From Alphaproteobacteria bacterium (GTDB lineage Bacteria > Pseudomonadota > Alphaproteobacteria > Caulobacterales > Maricaulaceae): a DNA stretch of 64,000 bases. Each line of letters begins with the position of its first letter. Position 1 is the stretch's first letter. Made by a program: the position numbers and the translations under genes. This document shows positions 10,686-20,337 of this stretch, piece after piece. The stretch spans positions 744,001 to 808,000 of the forward strand of contig JANSXV010000001.1 of NCBI GenBank assembly GCA_024742735.1. The letters are read 5' to 3'. The notes beneath the pieces are model-generated. The model did no database searches. It saw only the letters and a list, made by a program, of their open reading frames with translations, and was not told the DNA's origin.

Positions 10686-10760
10686 GCCGCCATAGCTCAG
10701 GGGTAGAGCGTTCCCTTGGTAAGGGAGAGGTCCACAGTTCAAATCTGTGTGGCGGCACCA
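10686..10760 (+). tRNA. tRNA-Thr (anticodon GGT)
   Basis: Cloverleaf with GCCGCCA/TGGCGGC acceptor stem, TTCCC-TTGGTAA-GGGAG anticodon arm, encoded CCA. Confidence 0.96.
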
Positions 10761-10762
10761 TT
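10706..10762 (+). repeat. att direct repeat, tRNA-proximal copy
   Basis: gagcgttcccttggtaagggagaggtccacagttcaaatctgtgtggcggcaccatt, identical to 18585-18641. Confidence 0.97.
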
Positions 10763-10839
10763 ACTTACCCAGCAAAAACAATAGTATATGCGCTTGTCTC
10801 AATCCGCAGACGGACGGTTTTTGGCCCCAGTACTGCCGC

Positions 10840-10860
10840 TGTCCCAAGTATGTCCCAAGC
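10840..10860. promoter_or_regulatory. putative integrase arm-type binding repeats, left end
   Basis: TGTCCCAAGTATGTCCCAAG, shared with the right end; an inverted relative CTTGGGGACAG lies at about 10894-10904. Confidence 0.7.
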
Positions 10861-10927
10861 GTGATCGAACTTCCCAACGGGCCTCAGGACACACTTGGGG
10901 ACAGCCGATGAGGCCTCAAAGTCTGCT

Positions 10928-11176
10928 TTAAGCAGCAGCAGTTTCAGCCGCAAGACGTGCTTCAGTCCCGCTCTTGAATGCCTGCGAGCGAGCCCAAGTG
11001 TCCACCTCGGAGAGCTTGAAGGCGATCCGACGCCCGATGTTGTAGCAGGGGAATGGCACCTCTCCGCGCTCTCTCCACTTCCGCAGGGTAGACGGCTTCA
11101 GACCGAGAAACTCAGCAGCATCGTTCAGGGAGACATAGGGTTCAGGTTGGGTGGTTTGGTTGTGGTTCGTGGTCAT
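10928..11176 (-). CDS. AlpA/excisionase-like helix-turn-helix protein
   Basis: YVSLNDAAEFLGLKPSTLRKWRERGEVPFPCYNIGRRIAFKLSEVDTWARSQ. Confidence 0.85.
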   Translation of the reverse strand: MTTNHNQTTQPEPYVSLNDAAEFLGLKPSTLRKWRERGEVPFPCYNIGRRIAFKLSEVDTWARSQAFKSGTEARLAAETAAA

Positions 11177-11382
11177 GGTTCCTGTTCAGCGGTAGACGCG
11201 GCCTCCCGCAGGCTCATGAGCCGAGGACTAGCCCCGGCTCCCTCCCCCCTCGGCTTCCTTCAGAAACTCAGGGAGGGGGTACGGGGGGAAGCGCGCTTCG
11301 ATATAGATGATTTCGGGCTCTCAGATTTTTGGGCCGAAATCTCGACCCCACCAGAGAGGCTTGGGGTTGCCTTGAGCGGCGG

Positions 11383-11464
11383 TTTAGGCGGGGGCTAATG
11401 GCCGTCTCGGTGTGTCCATAGGCCAACCTACCGGAGCCGCTCGGATGCTCATTGGCCCCGGAGG
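11383..11464 (+). repeat. dispersed ~80-bp structured repeat, copy A
   Basis: TTTAGGCGGGGGCTAATGGCCGTC...CCAACCTACCGGAG...CATTGGCCCC; partner of copies B, C and D. Confidence 0.8.
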
Positions 11465-11500
11465 GCTTTGCCCGAGGACAGGCCTAGGCCCCAAAGCGAT

Positions 11501-11854
11501 CTACTCATACGAAGGCCCGGAGGCTTCCATCGGGACGCCATGGAGAAACTCCGCAGGAAACACGCGGTAGGTCTCATGGCGCTGATAGTGAGCTTCAACG
11601 CCTTCGAGGTAGGTCCGGCGCTCGGCTTGGAGCCGGGGTACGGCCTCAGCCGTCAGCCGCTCCATTTTCGACTTGCGCTCAAGCCTGAGAGCCTCAAGGG
11701 CGTTGGCCTTGCGCTCGGCCCGGCGTTGTCTGGCGTAGGCGTTCTGACACTCCTTGCAGCGGGTCAGGCGTCCGCCTTTGGAGCGTTTCACGAAGGCCTC
11801 GTAGGGCTTGGTCTCACCGCAGTCTCGGCAGACTTGGGTTTCAGGCTCTTTCAT
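11501..11854 (-). CDS. putative zinc-ribbon protein with helical C-terminus
   Basis: CRDCGETKPYEAFVKRSKGGRLTRCKECQNAYARQRRAERK: two CxxC pairs followed by a charged helix. Confidence 0.65.
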   Translation of the reverse strand: MKEPETQVCRDCGETKPYEAFVKRSKGGRLTRCKECQNAYARQRRAERKANALEALRLERKSKMERLTAEAVPRLQAERRTYLEGVEAHYQRHETYRVFPAEFLHGVPMEASGPSYE

Positions 11855-11870
11855 GGATGGCCCTCACGTT

Positions 11871-11950
11871 CGTTTTAGGCGGGGGCCATTGGCCGTCTAG
11901 GGGTATCCGAAGGGTAGACCACCAGAGACAGTGAGACGGTCATTGGCCCC
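11871..11950 (+). repeat. dispersed ~80-bp structured repeat, copy B
   Basis: CGTTTTAGGCGGGGGCCATTGGCCGTCT...AGACGGTCATTGGCCCC; terminal arms are complementary. Confidence 0.85.
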
Positions 11951-11983
11951 GCAGGCTCATGAGCCATTGGCTCCGCGCATTCA

Positions 11984-12193
11984 CTACGCCTCAGGCTTGG
12001 GCTTCTGTGGGATCATCCGAGAGGCCGTCTCTTCGATCCATCGGCCAAGGTCTCTGAGGGTCTCAGGCGTGGTCGTGGCGAGCGGGTCCACGTCGATTTG
12101 GACCTTCCCCGGCTCTCCGGCGCGGGCCCTCAGGGTGACGGCCTTGGACGGAGAGACGAGGAAGTGAACGGGGAAGCGGGCGGTCTTGGGCAT
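11984..12193 (-). CDS. hypothetical protein (69 aa)
   Basis: ORF in an all-minus operon-like run with small intergenic gaps. Confidence 0.5.
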   Translation of the reverse strand: MPKTARFPVHFLVSPSKAVTLRARAGEPGKVQIDVDPLATTTPETLRDLGRWIEETASRMIPQKPKPEA

Positions 12194-12213
12194 GGCGTGT
12201 TCAATCCTTCGGG

Positions 12214-12504
12214 TCAGCCGTTGATTTCCTCAATGCGGTCGCAGAGCCCAACGGCTCGGCGCGTCATGAGGTCTGCAATCGACGGCAGGGGCGTGGCGTT
12301 GAGCTTGAGGTCCTCGCGCCATGCGAGTTGACGCAGGCACTTCAGAACACCGTGGAAGCCCTCGCGGGTGAACTTGAGGTTCTCATAGCGGGGCTTGCCG
12401 TTCTTCCGGGTCCCCTTGCGCTTGGACACGATGAGCTGAAGGGGATCGCAGCGCAGCGCGAGGTCCTCATTGAGGTCCATGAGGAAGCGGTCTTCGGTCT
12501 TCAT
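12214..12504 (-). CDS. hypothetical protein (96 aa)
   Basis: ORF 10 bp downstream of the next gene; MKTEDRFLMDLNEDLALRCDPLQLIVSKRKGTRKNGKPRYENLKFTREGFHGVLKCLRQLAW. Confidence 0.6.
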   Translation of the reverse strand: MKTEDRFLMDLNEDLALRCDPLQLIVSKRKGTRKNGKPRYENLKFTREGFHGVLKCLRQLAWREDLKLNATPLPSIADLMTRRAVGLCDRIEEING

Positions 12505-12515
12505 CGCCGGACCTC

Positions 12516-13418
12516 CTAGCGCCGCTTGGCGTAGTTGATGACCGCAGCCGGAACCCAGTCCGGGAGGGTCGCCGGTTGGGCCGGGGAGGTCAGGAAGCCG
12601 ATCAGGAAGCGTAGGGCGGACGTGGCCTCAGTTGGCAGCTTGGAAGCGAGAGCCTCAGCGGCCTTCCACTGGGAAGCCGTCAGGTCCCGGTCGAGGGACT
12701 TCAGGGCCGTCCGCAGGGCTGCGAGGGCGTTCACCGGGCTTTGATGGTTCGACATCAAGACCCCGTTGGTGTTCGTGCAGAACCAATGGTCTGCGTTGCG
12801 GCTCTTGATCCAGACCGCGAAGCCGCCGCGTTCGATCCGCAGGGCGGTGTCGGGAGAGAGCTTGGCGAGAAGGATGGACGGATAGCCCGCGCCATTCCTA
12901 CCTATGACCTTAGAGCCTGCATCCTCGGAGACATCGCCTTCGATGGACGCCAGCCCGTCGAGGCTTAGCCGGACGCGATTAACGGGGTTGGAGGTCGTGG
13001 TTTCCACCTTCAGCCCATGGACCCGCTTGCGCTCGGCTACGAGGTCAGGGTGTACCCATGCCGGGGGCTCTGAGGTCATGGCCCCGCCCGAGGCGATATT
13101 GTGGACGGCCTGATAGGCCGCAGCGGCCACCGCAGGGACGCCATGGAGGAGAAGGTCTACCTCCCGGTTCCCGGTGAGGCCCAGAGCCTCGGCTTGCTGG
13201 CGGAGCGTGGTTTTGTCGCGCGCGAGGCCATTGGGACAACGCAGAGCCCCCGTGTCGAGAGTCAAGATGCGATAGGCCTGCGGTTCAATACGGATGGCGT
13301 AGGCTTGGCCTGCGTTCTCCACCTCGCAGAGTAGGTATGAGGAACCGCCGTTGGCGAGCGTGGCTTTCAGGGCCGTGAGATTAGACGCGGAGAGTTGTTC
13401 GACGGCGTGAGACATCAT
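12516..13418 (-). CDS. hypothetical protein (~300 aa) of the integrated element
   Basis: Long ORF; start placed at ATG 13418 (MMSHAVEQLSASNL...). Confidence 0.65.
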   Translation of the reverse strand: MMSHAVEQLSASNLTALKATLANGGSSYLLCEVENAGQAYAIRIEPQAYRILTLDTGALRCPNGLARDKTTLRQQAEALGLTGNREVDLLLHGVPAVAAAAYQAVHNIASGGAMTSEPPAWVHPDLVAERKRVHGLKVETTTSNPVNRVRLSLDGLASIEGDVSEDAGSKVIGRNGAGYPSILLAKLSPDTALRIERGGFAVWIKSRNADHWFCTNTNGVLMSNHQSPVNALAALRTALKSLDRDLTASQWKAAEALASKLPTEATSALRFLIGFLTSPAQPATLPDWVPAAVINYAKRR

Positions 13419-13529
13419 CGAGGTCCTTTTGTTGTTGCTGGGATGGGTTGCGGGGCTGAGCTTGTTCTCAGCCTTCGGCTTGCGGGGCTGAGGCCGGTCC
13501 TCTGCTTTCAGCCTGCGGGGCGTGAATGA

Positions 13530-13597
13530 CAAAAGAAGCCGAACCCGCGCCTCAGGAGGCCCTAGGGGAGGCTTCCCGGTCGCATGGTTCGGCTTCT
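13530..13597 (-). terminator. putative intrinsic terminator downstream of the scaffold-like gene
   Basis: 12-bp perfect inverted repeat AGAAGCCGAACC (13534-13545)/GGTTCGGCTTCT (13586-13597) followed on the minus strand by a T-rich tract. Confidence 0.6.
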
Positions 13598-13674
13598 CTC
13601 TCTCTCCGCTCACGCCAGACGGAGAGCTGGTTACGCCTAGGCTTGTCCTCGGCTGAGAGACAGTGGGAACGCGC

Positions 13675-14163
13675 TTAGGCGTCCCAGTCTGTCGCGGCGA
13701 TCCGAGCCTCTACGGTTTCAGCGTAGGTCGGGTCGCTGCGGTATCGCGGGTCTTGAATGGCCGCGATCATGTCGGATTGCGTCTCGAAGGCCGGAGCCTC
13801 AGGGACGGGCTTCATCTCGTGGGCTGAAGCGTTTCCAAAGACCCCTTCGAGCTGAACGCCTATGGACGGAGATGAGGCCGGTTCCATAGGCGCACTCATG
13901 GGCGCGCTCTCTGGCCCTTGGAAGGACCTTCCTTGCGCCTCATAGGCTTGACTGAGGTCGTGAACGAAAGCCTCAAATCGGGAGATGTCCTTGCCGTCGA
14001 GTGCGTCGTTCAAGGCTGCGTCGAAGGCTTCCTTGGAGGCTTGGTCCAAGGTGTTACGTCCGAAGTCTACGAGCGCTCGAAGTCGGTCATAACCGCCGCC
14101 TGCGAGGAGAACGCGGTCTTCGTAGCGCTCCTCCTTCGAGGGCGAATAGTCGATAGGTCGCAT
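13675..14163 (-). CDS. putative T7-like capsid assembly scaffolding-domain protein
   Basis: LAGGGYDRLRALVDFGRNTLDQASKEAFDAALNDALDGKDISRFEAFVHDLSQAYEAQG then FETQSDMIAAIQDPRYRSDPTYAETVEARIAATD, matching the C-terminal pattern of T7-like scaffold proteins (recognised by eye, not searched). Confidence 0.55.
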   Translation of the reverse strand: MRPIDYSPSKEERYEDRVLLAGGGYDRLRALVDFGRNTLDQASKEAFDAALNDALDGKDISRFEAFVHDLSQAYEAQGRSFQGPESAPMSAPMEPASSPSIGVQLEGVFGNASAHEMKPVPEAPAFETQSDMIAAIQDPRYRSDPTYAETVEARIAATDWDA

Positions 14164-14233
14164 GGTCGTCTTTCTGGTCTGGCGTGAGTTTGGCTGAAGC
14201 CCCGGTCTTCGCGGGGAAGGCGGTCGCGAACGA

Positions 14234-14283
14234 AGAGGCCCCCGCCTGCGTCAACCTTTCGGCAAACGCCAGCGAGGGCCTCT
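14234..14283 (-). terminator. putative terminator/attenuator hairpin upstream of the scaffold-like gene
   Basis: AGAGGCCCCCGC/GCGAGGGCCTCT inverted repeat (11 of 12 paired); minus-strand 3' side is TTCGTT. Confidence 0.4.
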
Positions 14284-14343
14284 CCATCTCAGCAATAAGG
14301 ACCACCGCTCCCACATCGACCGTAGGGAGCTTCAGGGACGCAG

Positions 14344-14425
14344 TTCAGGGCGTCCCGGTGTTCCCTGAGGAGTGAGCTTTGGACGCCAAGAGGCGCAGCC
14401 TCAGGAAACACCGGGAGGTCCTGAA
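14344..14425. repeat. long inverted repeat (27-nt arms, 24 of 27 complementary)
   Basis: TTCAGGGCGTCCCGGTGTTCCCTGAGG (14344-14370) vs CCTCAGGAAACACCGGGAGGTCCTGAA (14399-14425), 28-nt loop. Confidence 0.8.
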
Positions 14426-14626
14426 GATGTCTTTGAGATTATGACTACGGAGATGTCTTCTTCGTCGTCGAGCTATGGAAGGTCTAAAAGAGAGACTGAA
14501 GGTATCTTTAGATGTCTTTCAGTTTGTCTCTTGGCCCCCCTTCCCCCCAGAGCAGTGTCTCTGGGTTCGTCTTCGTCATCGTCGATCATGGGTGATCTTG
14601 GAGAGCGCGGCTGAGAGCGATCTTTC

Positions 14627-14780
14627 TCCTATAACACTGGGTTTTGGATCGGCCTTGGTCGGAACCTGTCTCCTGTGTTACAGAGGGTTTTGAAAATCCA
14701 TTTGATTTCAGAGGCTTGGCGGAGGGGCGTTGCCGATTGCGAGCGAACTCGTCCCCTATAACACTGGGTTTTTGAAAGCC
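14627..14780. repeat. three iteron-like repeats (core TAACACTGGGTTTT and a variant)
   Basis: TCCTATAACACTGGGTTTTGG (from 14627), TCCTGTGTTACAGAGGGTTTTGAAAATCC (from 14671), TCCCCTATAACACTGGGTTTTTGAAAGCC (from 14752). Confidence 0.65.
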
Positions 14781-14796
14781 ATTGTACTTCAATGAC

Positions 14797-15432
14797 TTAC
14801 GGAATCTCCGAGGCTCTACGTCCCAGAGAGGCGTCCATGAACTCAGCAGGCCCCAGCCCCGCAGGCCGAAGCCCGAAGCCCGCTCTCACTGACGTTCGCC
14901 CTACGAGAAGACAAGCCTCGGCCCAGACACGTCCATAGGCGGCGATTTTGGCGGGGCTAATGCGCTTCCGAAGGTGTCCGAAGGGTAGACCAGCGGGGAG
15001 CCTCGGATCGGCGTTGGCCCCTCGGTCTCTCAAGGCGATGAGCTTCATGGCGTGGGAAAGGTCCCGCGCGTCAGGCGTAGGAGGCTTAAGGCTGTTCCTA
15101 AGGGGCTCGCCGGGGGCCTCCTTAGGCTTATTGCCGCATATCTCCTGCCAGCGGTCCCACGACACCGGCCACTCACGGGCCAGCTTCATGAGCTGCCCGA
15201 TGCGGGATCGGGAGATGTCCAGTATACTGGATATTTCCACCTTCAGCGGCTCGAACTCCCCGTGCTTACACGCGGCCTTCAGCTCGATCAGGGCTTCCCC
15301 GGCGTTCTTGTAGTGAACCAGCGCCTCGTCTCGCTTGGCGTCTCCAAGGCGAACCTCGGAGACCACGCGGGAGACCAGCCGGTCGATCTCCCGCACGGTC
15401 GGCAGGTCGTGGCGGTTACGTCGATCCATCAT
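14797..15432 (-). CDS. DUF3102-like protein
   Basis: ALVHYKNAGEALIELKAACKHGEFEPLKVEISSILDISRSRIGQLMKLAREWP; ATG overlaps the upstream ORF stop (ATGA). The C-terminal coding part overlaps repeat copy C. Confidence 0.6.
   Translation of the reverse strand: MMDRRNRHDLPTVREIDRLVSRVVSEVRLGDAKRDEALVHYKNAGEALIELKAACKHGEFEPLKVEISSILDISRSRIGQLMKLAREWPVSWDRWQEICGNKPKEAPGEPLRNSLKPPTPDARDLSHAMKLIALRDRGANADPRLPAGLPFGHLRKRISPAKIAAYGRVWAEACLLVGRTSVRAGFGLRPAGLGPAEFMDASLGRRASEIP
14944..15022 (+). repeat. dispersed ~80-bp structured repeat, copy C (divergent)
   Basis: ATTTTGGCGGGGCTAATGCGC...CCGAAGGGTAGACCAGC...GTTGGCCCC; shares the CCGAAGGGTAGACCA segment with copy B. Confidence 0.7.
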
Positions 15433-15641
15433 GAGCCCTTGCCCTCCCATTGGTCCAAGTCGAGGACAAACGGACCAGCCCGGAGCGTCGTCCCTGTGTG
15501 CTCTCGCTCAACGAAGAAGGCGGGAGAGCCTTTCGGAGCCGGGTCCCAAGCGAGATGGAAACCGCGTCCGTTGCGGGCGAAATGGAGAAGCGTGAAGCCG
15601 TCGAAGGCGGTGAAGCTCAGCGAAGCGGTATGCAGCGTCAT
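15429..15641 (-). CDS. hypothetical protein (70 aa), translationally coupled to the DUF3102-like gene
   Basis: TGA overlaps the downstream ATG by ATGA. Confidence 0.55.
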   Translation of the reverse strand: MTLHTASLSFTAFDGFTLLHFARNGRGFHLAWDPAPKGSPAFFVEREHTGTTLRAGPFVLDLDQWEGKGS

Positions 15642-15949
15642 AGTTCCTCTACCGGGTCGTCTTTGTGTGCGTGTCGTGGAGCCTAGAGCGGCTCTGAAAC
15701 TTGGAAATACGAATCCGTCGCGCCGACCTCAAGTGCATGAAGTTAAATTGTTTTATTGATTTTCTTGCCCATTCGTGATACGCAGATATCGAAGCTGAGG
15801 ACTCCAATTCCCATCGCCGCCTTCTGCTGTTCCGGCATTTGCGTTGCAGATCGCGGACATAAAGAAGCCGGGCAGGTTCCCATTGGGGCTGGTTTTGTGA
15901 CGCGGCGTGACGCAGGTTGTACGCGCAAACCAATTCAGGGAATTGAAAC

Positions 15950-16885
15950 GTGATACCAGACTTCCAATCGCTTATGCGTCCGGTGCTGAGTTACGCGGCG
16001 GCGCGCGAGGAAGCGCGCATAGGCGCTGCGGTGTCTGATCTAGCAGACGAACTGGGGCTATCAGACGAAGAGCGGGCTGAGCTTCTTCCCAGCCGGAAGC
16101 AGACGCGGTTCGCCAATCGCGTGCATTGGGCGAAGTTCTACTTGACCCGAGCGGAACTCGTTAAGGCCACGAAGCGCGGCTACTTCCAGATTACAGAGGC
16201 GGGGAAGGAGGCGCTGAAAACCGACGAGCAGATCAATATGGCGTTCCTTGAGCGCTTCGAGGCCTACCGGGAGTTTCGCGAGAGTATGACGAAGGACGAT
16301 GCAGGCGATGAAGCCGCAGCTCGCCCTACTCAATCGCAGTCCGATGATGACGTGGACGATGCGACACCGGACGAACAGCTCAGGTCGGCGCACAAGCTCA
16401 TAAACGACGCCCTTGCGGCAGAGCTTCTCGAAAAGCTGCGAGACGCAACTCCTGCCTTCTTCGAGGAAGTGATTGTGTCGCTTCTTCTGGCGATGGGCTA
16501 CGGCGGGGCAGATGAAGGCGCTGGCAGAACCCTTGGCCAGAGCGGTGACGGCGGCGTTGATGGGGTCATAGACCAAGACCCGCTAGGCGTTGACCAGATA
16601 TATGTTCAGGCAAAGCTGTATCGCGAAGGGAACAATATCGGCCCCGGAGCGATCCGGGATTTCTTCGGAGCGCTGGACATCAAGAAGGCCAAAAAGGGAA
16701 TTTTCGTTACTGCCTCAACCTTCTCCCGAAGCGCGCGAGAGACGGCTGCGGCGCTAGGCACGCGAATTGTCCTTATCGACGGCCACGAATTGGCCCGCCT
16801 GATGATCCGTTACGGGGTCGGGTGCCGGGTCATAAACGTGCTTGAGGTTAAGCAGATTGACGAAGAGTTCTTCCCCGATCCGTGA
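15950..16885 (+). CDS. Mrr-family restriction endonuclease (type IV-like)
   Basis: N-terminal winged-helix-like Mrr_N region (LSDEERAELLPSRKQTRFANRVHWAKFYLTRAELV) and Mrr_cat motif FFEEVIVSLLLAMGYGG...GQSGDGGVDGVIDQDPLGVDQIYVQAKLY. Confidence 0.92.
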   Translation: MIPDFQSLMRPVLSYAAAREEARIGAAVSDLADELGLSDEERAELLPSRKQTRFANRVHWAKFYLTRAELVKATKRGYFQITEAGKEALKTDEQINMAFLERFEAYREFRESMTKDDAGDEAAARPTQSQSDDDVDDATPDEQLRSAHKLINDALAAELLEKLRDATPAFFEEVIVSLLLAMGYGGADEGAGRTLGQSGDGGVDGVIDQDPLGVDQIYVQAKLYREGNNIGPGAIRDFFGALDIKKAKKGIFVTASTFSRSARETAAALGTRIVLIDGHELARLMIRYGVGCRVINVLEVKQIDEEFFPDP

Positions 16886-16898
16886 TGCCCTTCAGCGG

Positions 16899-16979
16899 CG
16901 TTTTAGGCGGGGGCCAATGACCGTCGAGAGGGTTCCTCGGGTCAACCTACCAGAGCCCCCTCAGAACGTCATTGGCCCC
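16899..16979 (+). repeat. dispersed ~80-bp structured repeat, copy D
   Basis: CGTTTTAGGCGGGGGCCAATGACCGTC...GGTCAACCTACCAGAG...AACGTCATTGGCCCC. Confidence 0.85.
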
Positions 16980-16983
16980 ACCG

Positions 16984-18282
16984 CTAGGCCGGGAACCGAA
17001 CCACGTTGGACGCGGCCTCCTCAGTCGCCTCCTCGCCAGCCGCGATGCGCTCCACAAGACGCCCCCAAGCCTCCAAGGCCCGGCGCTTGTCCGGGAGGTA
17101 GGCGTTAAGGTCGTAGGTGCGCTGAAGGCCAGAGCCGGTGGCGTGGTTCAGCACCAGCTCCCCCACATGAGGCTCCATACCGATCCTCTCAGGGTCTGTG
17201 ATGGCCGTCCGGCCAGTCCGGCGAAGGTCATGCGGCGTAAGGTTCTCAATCCCCAGAACCTCACAGTCACGCCGGAAGACCTGAGTGAGGGAGTTCCGCT
17301 TCAGGGTCCCGTCCCCATCGCGGCCTGCGAAAGGCCCTTCGTGATCGCCGTTCATTTCCAAGGCGGCTTCGAGGACGGCGACGGCCTGAGAGGAGAGCGG
17401 GACAACGGCCTCCCGGCCTTCCTTCTTGCGGCCCTCTGGGAGCGTCCAGACCTTCCGCTTCCAGTCGATTTCCTCCCACCGCATTGACGCTACTTCCTCG
17501 CCCCTTTGAAGCGTCAACGCCATGAACTGAAGCGCGAGAGCCCCAGAGACGGCCCGAGGGTCGCCTCCTGTCGCCTTGGCGTCCCAACGGGTCCAGAGCG
17601 CGCGGAGTTCTTCGTCTGAGGCCCGGCGCGTCCTCGGCTTCTCCGGGAACTTCTCAATGTGCTGCATGGGGTCCAGTTCGATCCACTTCAGGAAGTGGGC
17701 GTGCTTGAAAAGCTGAAGGAGGTACTTGCGCGCGTCGTTCGCGGCCCCTGCGCCTGTCCCACCGCTCCGCTTTGCGGCCTCGGCTTGGACCTCAAGAAGG
17801 AACTCCATGATGTCTGTGTGATCCACTTCGGAGACGATGCGGTGTCCAAGGCCGGGGACGATCTTCGCCTCCACCTGATACCGGGCCTTCTGGAGCGTCG
17901 AGAGCCTCTTACCGCTGCGGCGCTCTTCGTGAGCGAGATAGAGTTCCCCGAGGCGCTTGAATGTCCGCTCGCGCTTCTCGACGCCCTTCTTGCGGGTGGC
18001 CTTGCGCTCGGCTCCGGGGTCCTTCTTGTCGCTGCGGACATCGGCGCGGACCTTCGCGGCCATGTCGCGGGCCTTCTCCGGGAGGAGGCTTGGGTACTCC
18101 CCGAGGATTTGGTCTGAGTTCTTACCCTCGGCGGTCACATAGCGGACGGCGAACTTCTTGCGGCCTGTCGGATAGACGAAGAGGCAGAAGCCGGGCTGGT
18201 CGGTGTCGTTGATCCGGTACCGTTTGGGACGGATTTCGGCGTTTTCGACGGATCGCTTGGTGAGTTTGAGTTTCTCGGGCAT
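16984..18282 (-). CDS. tyrosine recombinase/integrase with N-terminal arm-binding domain
   Basis: 432 aa; N-terminal KLTKRSVENAEIRPKRYRINDTDQPGFCLFVYPTGRK; catalytic LQRGEEVASMRWEEID, HDLRRTGRT, LNHATG, TYDLN. Confidence 0.95.
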   Translation of the reverse strand: MPEKLKLTKRSVENAEIRPKRYRINDTDQPGFCLFVYPTGRKKFAVRYVTAEGKNSDQILGEYPSLLPEKARDMAAKVRADVRSDKKDPGAERKATRKKGVEKRERTFKRLGELYLAHEERRSGKRLSTLQKARYQVEAKIVPGLGHRIVSEVDHTDIMEFLLEVQAEAAKRSGGTGAGAANDARKYLLQLFKHAHFLKWIELDPMQHIEKFPEKPRTRRASDEELRALWTRWDAKATGGDPRAVSGALALQFMALTLQRGEEVASMRWEEIDWKRKVWTLPEGRKKEGREAVVPLSSQAVAVLEAALEMNGDHEGPFAGRDGDGTLKRNSLTQVFRRDCEVLGIENLTPHDLRRTGRTAITDPERIGMEPHVGELVLNHATGSGLQRTYDLNAYLPDKRRALEAWGRLVERIAAGEEATEEAASNVVRFPA

Positions 18283-18431
18283 TTTCGGCGCGTTTCACTT
18301 CCTGAGGACTTATGGCGAACCCTAGGAGGGGATTTGGAGGGGACTTCGTTGGGACGCTTCTCAGCTTGGCTGTTCTGACAACGCGGTGAAGACAGCAAGT
18401 CGCCTCGAAGTGTCCCTGAAAACCCCAGAGC

Positions 18432-18460
18432 GTCCCAAGAATGTCCCAAGTATGTCCCAA
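18432..18460. promoter_or_regulatory. putative integrase arm-type binding repeats, right end
   Basis: GTCCCAAGAATGTCCCAAGTATGTCCCAA: three GTCCCAA units at 10-bp period, upstream of int. Confidence 0.7.
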
Positions 18461-18584
18461 TTTCAAGGCCGAAAAGCGTCGAACTCCATCGCACTCAATA
18501 CGAAAGCCAACGAGGTCTAAACGCCTGTTTTTCCATGGAAAACAAACAAACAGTCGATGAGAAACAGGCACTTAGAACATATCT

Positions 18585-18641
18585 GAGCGTTCCCTTGGTA
18601 AGGGAGAGGTCCACAGTTCAAATCTGTGTGGCGGCACCATT
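18585..18641 (+). repeat. att direct repeat, distal copy (partial tRNA-Thr 3' segment)
   Basis: 57 nt identical to 10706-10762. Confidence 0.97.
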
Positions 18642-18852: not shown

Positions 18853-20337
18853 TCAAAGCTCCGCGAGGGCGTCGACGGTGGTGTCGGCGGCCGTGGTGTA
18901 GGTGAGTTCAAATCCGGCGGGCGTGATGTGCGCTGCGGATCCCGCGCTGAGGCTGACGGTGGGCGCGGCGCGCATGGGGCTTAAGCCGATATGCCGGTTC
19001 CCGTTTTCGGTGCGCACGGTCTTCCTCTGGAAATAGCGCGCGCACAGGGCCGCCTCCAGGCTGCGCGGACGCCGCTCGAAGGGCGTGGCGAGCGGGCCCG
19101 GCTCCAGCTGGACATCGGCCAGCTCGATGGTCGGCGCGGCGCTGGCCGCCGGCACGGTCAGGCGCAGGGCCAGGTAATGGCCCGCCGCCAGGGTGCGCCC
19201 TGTGAGATCGGGCAGCGTCACGGTCTGGACGCACCGCGACCAGCTGGTCCCGACCGCGAAGGCTTTGGTGTCCCCGAAGCTCGCCGCGGGTGAGCCGCCG
19301 CCCCAGTATTGCTGCAAGCGGGCCTGCAGGCTCACCGTTTCGCTCGCCCGGGCCCAGAAGCTGTAGGTCAGCGTCTGACCGGCCAGCGTGCGCACATCCT
19401 CGATGCGTTGCTCGATGGAGGCGTCAGACGGGACCGCATCCATCACCCATCGCAAATAAGAGCCCGGCGCGCCGGGGACATCAGACTGCCCCGGCGCGAA
19501 ACTCTCCTGGGTGAACACATGGCCGACGCCGCCGCTCTGCACGCGCACCCACCGGTCCATGAAGGCAGGCTGGCTCTGCGCGCCGCCGCGCTGGTGGATG
19601 GAGAAATCGCCGTTGATGATCCGGTTTCGCAAGCCTCCCAGCGCATCGCCGTTGAGCGCCGTCAGCGCCCGCGCGGTCAGCGCGCCGGAGTTCCGGTCCA
19701 CATGGACCGCCTGCGTCCAGTTCGCCCCGTCCGCACTGACTTTCAGCGACAGGTCATCCGATCCGGTCAGCCCCAGCTCGGCCCGGCCAGACCACGCGGA
19801 CTGGAACAGAAGCGAAAGGACGTTTCCCGGCGCTTCCTTGTTCAACGTGTAGCGCAAGTCTCCCGTGCCGCCTTCTGCGTCAAAGCGGGCGGTCCACAGC
19901 GCGCTGTTGAGCTTGGCGGCGAACGGGTTGGCGATATCCGGGGCGGTTCCGACCCCCAGTCCTGTCAGGTCGCTGAGCACCGTGATCGCATCCGCAAACG
20001 CCGCCCAGCCCGTGCCGTCGAACATGATCAGCGCCGCCTCGTCCACGACCCAGGCGGTCAGCCCGGCACGCGCGGTGATGCGCCGCCAGGCGCCGTCCTG
20101 GAAATAGGCGATGTCATGCTCGAAGAATCCGTCCCAGTCCGCCCCGCTCGCGCCGTCCGGCAGGATCCAGGCCTCCCCCTCCCCCGGGGCGGCGGGCTGG
20201 GCGGTGGTCGTGCGGCTCTGGACGGCGCATTGCACCAGGGCGTCCAGGCGCCCCAGGCTTTCATTGACGGTGACGTGCTTCTGGGCCTGGGCCGGCATGA
20301 GCCAGGGAAGGCCAAGGCGGGGGGTGGCGTCGCTCAT
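18853..20337 (-). CDS. DUF2793 domain-containing, phage/GTA tail-associated-like protein
   Basis: PRLGLPWLMPAQAQKHVTVNESLGRLDALVQ plus NRIINGDFSIHQRG carbohydrate-binding-like tail-fibre module. Confidence 0.85.
   Translation of the reverse strand: MSDATPRLGLPWLMPAQAQKHVTVNESLGRLDALVQCAVQSRTTTAQPAAPGEGEAWILPDGASGADWDGFFEHDIAYFQDGAWRRITARAGLTAWVVDEAALIMFDGTGWAAFADAITVLSDLTGLGVGTAPDIANPFAAKLNSALWTARFDAEGGTGDLRYTLNKEAPGNVLSLLFQSAWSGRAELGLTGSDDLSLKVSADGANWTQAVHVDRNSGALTARALTALNGDALGGLRNRIINGDFSIHQRGGAQSQPAFMDRWVRVQSGGVGHVFTQESFAPGQSDVPGAPGSYLRWVMDAVPSDASIEQRIEDVRTLAGQTLTYSFWARASETVSLQARLQQYWGGGSPAASFGDTKAFAVGTSWSRCVQTVTLPDLTGRTLAAGHYLALRLTVPAASAAPTIELADVQLEPGPLATPFERRPRSLEAALCARYFQRKTVRTENGNRHIGLSPMRAAPTVSLSAGSAAHITPAGFELTYTTAADTTVDALAEL

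Follow-up and report, generated by a model that had tools for sequence, protein, structure and literature searches.

The island in tRNA-Thr and its gene content

The window, a 64,000-nt stretch of contig JANSXV010000001.1 (positions 744,001-808,000) from an Alphaproteobacteria bacterium of the Maricaulaceae, contains an integrated mobile element at 10706-18641. This 7.9-kb island lies in tRNA-Thr, is flanked by 57-bp exact direct repeats, and has a GC content of ~57-64%, compared with mostly 65-70% in the flanks (Table 1). Besides a tyrosine integrase, it encodes an HTH_17/AlpA-type protein that is a candidate excisionase or activator, and TTGGGACATAC-type repeats near both of its ends may be integrase arm sites. 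A further gene encodes a 162-aa protein, called here the scaffold fragment, which is the subject of this analysis. For the neighboring p300, the start was placed at the ATG that matches its counterpart in a second island described below (the longest ORF, of 365 aa, begins at 13613); an AlphaFold model of p300 was uninformative (pLDDT 37).

No portal, capsid, tail, or terminase gene was recognized among the island proteins tested with Pfam and PHROG profiles, and within the island no Rfam family except tRNA reached its gathering score. Of the features by which satellites are recognized, the island has an integrase and attachment repeats that bound a small element, without a complete virion gene set. 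When the two flanks were joined to represent the empty site, same-genus genomes matched this query on the tRNA side alone and not across the junction. Immediately outside the right boundary of the island lies a 494-aa ORF (18853-20337, minus strand), which presumably resembles DUF2793-type phage/GTA tail proteins.

Table 1. Positions of features in the window island, with the promoter-like repeats of the Marinicauda salina island (locus L007) for comparison
Feature	Position	Strand	Evidence or remark
Direct repeat, left end (attachment site)	10706..10762		57-bp exact; overlaps 3' part of tRNA-Thr(GGT) 10686-10760
TTGGGACATAC-type repeats, left end, candidate integrase arm sites	10836..10864	-	role inferred
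HTH_17/AlpA-type DNA-binding protein, 82 aa	10928..11176	-	PF12728 E=3.1e-12; phrog_66 excisionase E=1.7e-12
Inverted-repeat unit copy 4	11382..11464	-	fold z -1.1
Zinc-binding endonuclease VII/HNH-like core protein, 117 aa	11501..11854	-	phrog_1035 E=5.7e-12; match in L007
Inverted-repeat unit copy 3	11872..11954	-	fold z -4.1
Small ORF, 69 aa, no family assigned	11984..12193	-	absent from L007
Core protein p96, no family assigned	12214..12504	-	66% identity to L007:11706-12026
Core protein p300, no family assigned	12516..13418	-	60% identity to L007 counterpart
Scaffold fragment, stand-alone homologue of T7-like scaffold C-terminal half	13675..14163	-	profiles, alignment, model, fold search
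Promoter-like repeat 3, CAAAACCCAGTGTTATAGGAGAA	14624..14646	-	
Promoter-like repeat 2, CAAAACCCTCTGTAACACAGGAG	14670..14692	-	
Promoter-like repeat 1, AAAAACCCAGTGTTATAGGGGAC	14751..14773	-	
p217, 217 aa, weakly DUF3102-like (below cut-off)	14797..15450	-	profile search
Inverted-repeat unit copy 2, degenerate, inside 217-aa ORF	14938..15012	-	fold z 0.4
Core protein p70, no family assigned	15429..15641	-	67% identity to L007:8800-9018
Mrr-type (type IV, modification-dependent) restriction endonuclease, cargo	15950..16885	+	Mrr_cat E=3.2e-33, Mrr_N E=7e-28 (Pfam); PADLOC mREase_IV E=1e-79
Inverted-repeat unit copy 1	16897..16983	-	fold z -4.9
Tyrosine integrase, 432 aa	16984..18282	-	PF00589 E=9.9e-16, PF13356; phrog_1 E=3.1e-54
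TTGGGACATAC-type repeats, right end, candidate integrase arm sites	18427..18465	-	role inferred
Direct repeat, right end (attachment site)	18585..18641		57-bp exact
Promoter-like repeats in L007	9507, 9737		

Homology of the 162-aa protein to T7-like scaffolding proteins

As judged by profile comparison, in which the similarity is far above chance, the 162-aa protein (ATG start, minus strand, read from 14163 to 13675) is a homologue of T7-like scaffolding proteins, limited to their C-terminal half. Residues 11-160 matched positions 176-293 of the 293-position profile phrog_1052 (“head assembly”; E=2.3e-15), and the match to PF05396 (Phage_T7_Capsid) had E=2.3e-8 and a score of 35.1 bits, above the cut-off of 27.1. 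In an alignment with four full-length scaffolds (loci L028, L008, L009, and L033), the scaffold fragment begins at a “GG” helical block with almost nothing before it, and the N-terminal half of its full-length homologues is missing. The sequence-only reading had proposed just such a C-terminal half, and both profiles and the starting point of the alignment bear it out; the motif blocks on which it had relied are likewise all in the protein, namely, AGGGYDRL in an AGG block, a linker, and then AAIQDPRYRSDPTY with the DPRY block. The layout is a four-helix block, a variable linker, and a C-terminal DPRY block.

Pairwise searches gave a fainter picture. With tblastn against annotated phages, matches were weak (best E 2e-7, most of the matches listed >1e-3), spanned ~92% of the scaffold fragment at 26-28% identity, and fell on the C-terminal part of scaffold/capsid-assembly genes, T7 gene 9 among them. 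A trimmed query gave no phage match at 1e-5; the homology therefore shows only marginally in pairwise comparison, and it is the profiles that carry the case. An AlphaFold model built from two sequences (mean pLDDT 59.6) had a block of four helices, a linker without structure, and, at the C terminus, a short helical part. A Foldseek search with such a model had been proposed as a check, and against viral predictions it placed named T7-like capsid-assembly/scaffold proteins at ranks 1-4 (probability 0.80-0.99, best E 0.012). Neither by sequence nor by fold was there a match for the scaffold fragment in the PDB. In profile and fold searches alike, the relatives are T7-like scaffolds rather than unrelated families alone.

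Compared with T7 gp9 and the phrog_1052 scaffolds, with which homology extends over the C-terminal half, the scaffold fragment is without the N-terminal half and does not lie between portal and capsid genes. That it stands alone, as the sequence-only reading had held, agrees with the absence of a recognized portal, capsid, or terminase gene from the 7.9-kb island, and its surroundings are an integrated mobile element rather than an intact prophage structural operon.

A second island in Marinicauda salina

Among 137 genomes in the family, one other carried an orthologue of the scaffold fragment, namely, that of Marinicauda salina WD6-1 (Maricaulaceae), where it occupies L007:9980-10429 with 54-55% identity. 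It is part of an island of ~7.7 kb bounded by a 14-bp repeat (6202 and 13883 in L007) where an ABC-F-type ATPase gene begins, an insertion site unlike the tRNA-Thr of the window. The Marinicauda integrase gave no tblastn match to that of the window. Common to both islands is a core in the order p70, scaffold fragment, p300, p96, and zinc protein, with identities of 67, 55, 60, 66, and 41%, respectively. The dN/dS values of 0.15-0.33 across the five core genes, for which dS is close to saturation or past it (for the scaffold fragment, dN 0.48 and dS 1.48), indicate purifying selection on all five. Within the scaffold fragment, identity between the two islands is 67% in the helix block, 61% in the C terminus, and 36% in the linker, and the alignment places the truncation point of the scaffold at the same position in both. 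In Marinicauda, p217 is a stub of which the first 26 residues alone match.

A second independent island that keeps the core is as expected of a satellite, and the back half of a scaffold standing alone, together with this matching island, suggests that the element could be a parasite, one that takes over T7-like head assembly or spoils it. The main rival to a satellite is a role in defense only, in which the scaffold fragment would be a dominant-negative poison of T7-like heads, kept with Mrr for the protection of the host, the island itself being unpackaged. A type IV restriction gene of the Mrr kind is indeed present in the window island, and a truncated scaffold could act as a competitor for coat protein. 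However, the Mrr gene was not found in the Marinicauda island and lies outside the common core, of which p70, p300, p96, and the zinc protein are without a defense match, and the integrase with its tRNA attachment, like the AlpA-type gene, is in keeping with a mobile satellite. We consider a purely defensive island rather unlikely, and since satellites interfere with their helpers too, the two readings overlap.

Rarity of stand-alone scaffold fragments

With the scaffold fragment as the query, no further convincing stand-alone case was found in 398 genomes of the order and 385 of the class. Other PF05396 matches in the order and class were frames of 186-456 aa, and at the four loci whose neighborhoods were read (L008, L009, L073, and L074, a minority of the PF05396 matches in the class), portal and/or capsid genes adjoin the T7-type scaffold gene. 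Short scaffold ORFs in two genomes (G659 and G788) were considered as further stand-alone cases and rejected because a portal-like gene lies directly upstream. Within the inspected set, the two islands thus appear to be the only stand-alone cases (n=2). The scaffold-like ORFs of L073 (8758-9255, 165 aa) and L074 (8419-9030, 203 aa) lie in small prophage-like clusters of other alphaproteobacteria, each with a portal-like gene directly upstream.

A family-wide search found no other PF05396 match in either host genome; with one match per host, no resident T7-like prophage supplies a scaffold. Scans of IMG/VR with the scaffold fragment, its two-member alignment, p300, and p96 returned no relatives, the corresponding integrase scan returned one distant relative only, and no plasmid with a relative of the scaffold fragment was found.

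Could the scaffold fragment be a leftover of a T7-like prophage shrunk by deletion? The order does contain T7-like prophages or phage contigs, so a source for such a remnant exists. However, the attachment repeats are intact and exact, the two islands share truncation point and gene order although their integrases differ, the core genes are under purifying selection, and no convincing phage relatives were found for the neighbors p300, p96, and p70. A remnant, already disfavored on these grounds, is very improbable.

Promoter-like repeats upstream of the scaffold fragment

In both islands, CAAAACCCNSYRTWAYW repeats lie on the same strand as the scaffold gene and upstream of it, with three copies in the window and two in Marinicauda. 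A stricter exact pattern of the repeat occurs once in the host genome, inside the island. With the same 18-mer search, intergenic motifs in multiple copies also came to light in three T7-like phages that infect alphaproteobacteria (RHEph21, CRP-113, and S2B), including seven copies of ATTACCCCTCACTTAAG in RHEph21, and no convincing motif was found in AP013549; motif discovery in one T7-like contig (G367:C168) gave no clear promoter. In the RHEph21 motif and in the T3 and gh-1 promoters, ACCC is followed by G 8-9 nt on, but in the island repeats the spacing from ACCC to the G run is 9-11 nt, which is variable and unusual for one T7-type promoter. A scan with the motif pattern produced three chance matches, all within coding regions, and no phage carrying the motif. 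The similarity of the repeats to T7-family RNA polymerase promoters is suggestive, and it is plausible that they would serve as promoters for the polymerase of a helper.

A 5' hairpin was considered as a general feature of these repeats. Strong hairpins directly follow both copies in Marinicauda (L007 9524-9556 and 9754-9786; z -3.9 and -4.7) but were not seen after the copies in the window (z 1.1, 0.2, and -0.5), so the hairpin was rejected as a general feature.

A candidate satellite of T7-like phages

The island at 10706-18641 is probably, though by no means certainly, a phage satellite of the phage-inducible-island type that exploits T7-like podoviruses and whose scaffold fragment competes for the coat protein of the helper. 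In the model that we infer, which extends from coat binding, competition, and capsid change or poisoning to helper identity, packaging, and mobilization, infection by a T7-like phage would induce the island, which would excise and express the scaffold fragment, perhaps by way of promoters that the RNA polymerase of the helper recognizes. The product, which keeps the conserved C-terminal half of a scaffold without the N-terminal half, would then compete with the full-length scaffold of the helper for the inner surface of the coat protein, with two possible outcomes: (i) assembly is diverted to capsids that fit the 7.9-kb island or (ii) assembly of the helper is spoiled. On grounds of conservation and analogy, the conserved C-terminal half of T7-like scaffolds presumably binds coat protein; against the model, a T7 structure paper assigns scaffold helices near the portal (PMC7196576). 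A narrower version, which we hold only tentatively, is a satellite family specialized on T7-like phages, in which the C-terminal-half scaffold redirects heads and its gene stands under promoters for the single-subunit RNA polymerase of the helper. With such promoters, we propose, the pirate protein would be made together with the structural proteins of the helper.

Another use for the same protein is conceivable. Capsid-sensing defense is known in general, and a mobile element might have recruited the scaffold fragment, which keeps the part likely to interact with coat, for a task unrelated to helper capsids, such as sensing T7-like coat protein and then setting off the island or a toxic response. 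However, no effector domain is fused to it, and none was recognized among the neighbors apart from Mrr, which makes a recruitment of this kind improbable.

For the satellite, a capsid-redirecting or capsid-poisoning role of the scaffold fragment fits and has a close mechanistic precedent in SaPI1 CpmB (PMC5644958). CpmB has its coat-binding C terminus in common with the helper scaffold, with which it competes for one and the same site, and CpmB binding changes the inter-capsomer angle (PMC5644958, PMC6893505), so that small capsids form. Like CpmB, which comes from a satellite of 80alpha, the protein studied here is small and consists of the C-terminal part of a scaffold without the rest, although here the activity is predicted. 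In contrast, CpmB resembles 80alpha/phi29-type scaffolds and carries RIIK, whereas the scaffold fragment is a member of the T7 scaffold family, retains about half of such a scaffold, and has no RIIK motif. Its C terminus is homologous to T7-like scaffolds in general, and no CpmA-like gene was recognized in the island. Rcm, the capsid redirector of the satellite SaPIpT1028, has likewise been proposed to act as a competitor of the helper scaffold (PMC12409344); it differs from the scaffold fragment in sequence family and in helper. A mobile island that carries just the C-terminal half of a T7-type scaffold is an arrangement analogous to CpmB and Rcm. P4 Sid and PLE TcaP are also satellite capsid-size factors, but both are external scaffolds (PMC10945586), whereas the scaffold fragment derives from an internal one.

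The PICMI of Vibrionaceae have no capsid-remodeling genes and insert next to fis (PMC10803314). The island resembles them as a small marine element with few genes and AlpA, and differs in its position in tRNA-Thr rather than beside fis and in having its relative in the Maricaulaceae rather than the Vibrionaceae. We file it as a candidate satellite with a putative capsid-interfering protein, placed in none of SaPI, PICMI, or PLE. In the open-access literature, no satellite of a T7-like phage was found, and the known capsid-redirecting satellite proteins (Sid, CpmB, Ccm, Rcm, and TcaP) act on other phage types. If the reading as a satellite is true, the T7 lineage is a further case in which the “reduced scaffold” solution evolved anew, and the island offers a test system and a way to learn which region of a T7-type scaffold sets capsid size. 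Likewise, the helper-promoter idea, if true, would give a satellite a simple means to time its genes.

Other repeats in the two islands

A second repeat family is an inverted-repeat unit of ~75 bp with the ends GGGGCCAATGA ... GGCCATTAGCCCCCGCC, present in four copies in the window island and in at least two in Marinicauda (L007 9222-9298 and 12507-12583). At the sensitivity used, it was not found elsewhere in the host genome. Every copy is in the operon orientation. In the window, copies 1 and 3 fold far better than shuffles and copies 2 and 4 do not, those in Marinicauda fold moderately (z -1.9 and -2.1), and the RNAalifold covariation term of +1.17 is not supportive. The Marinicauda island also has, at L007 9340-12234, many short repeats such as GGAGGACATGCCTCGGCC, which occur in several places.
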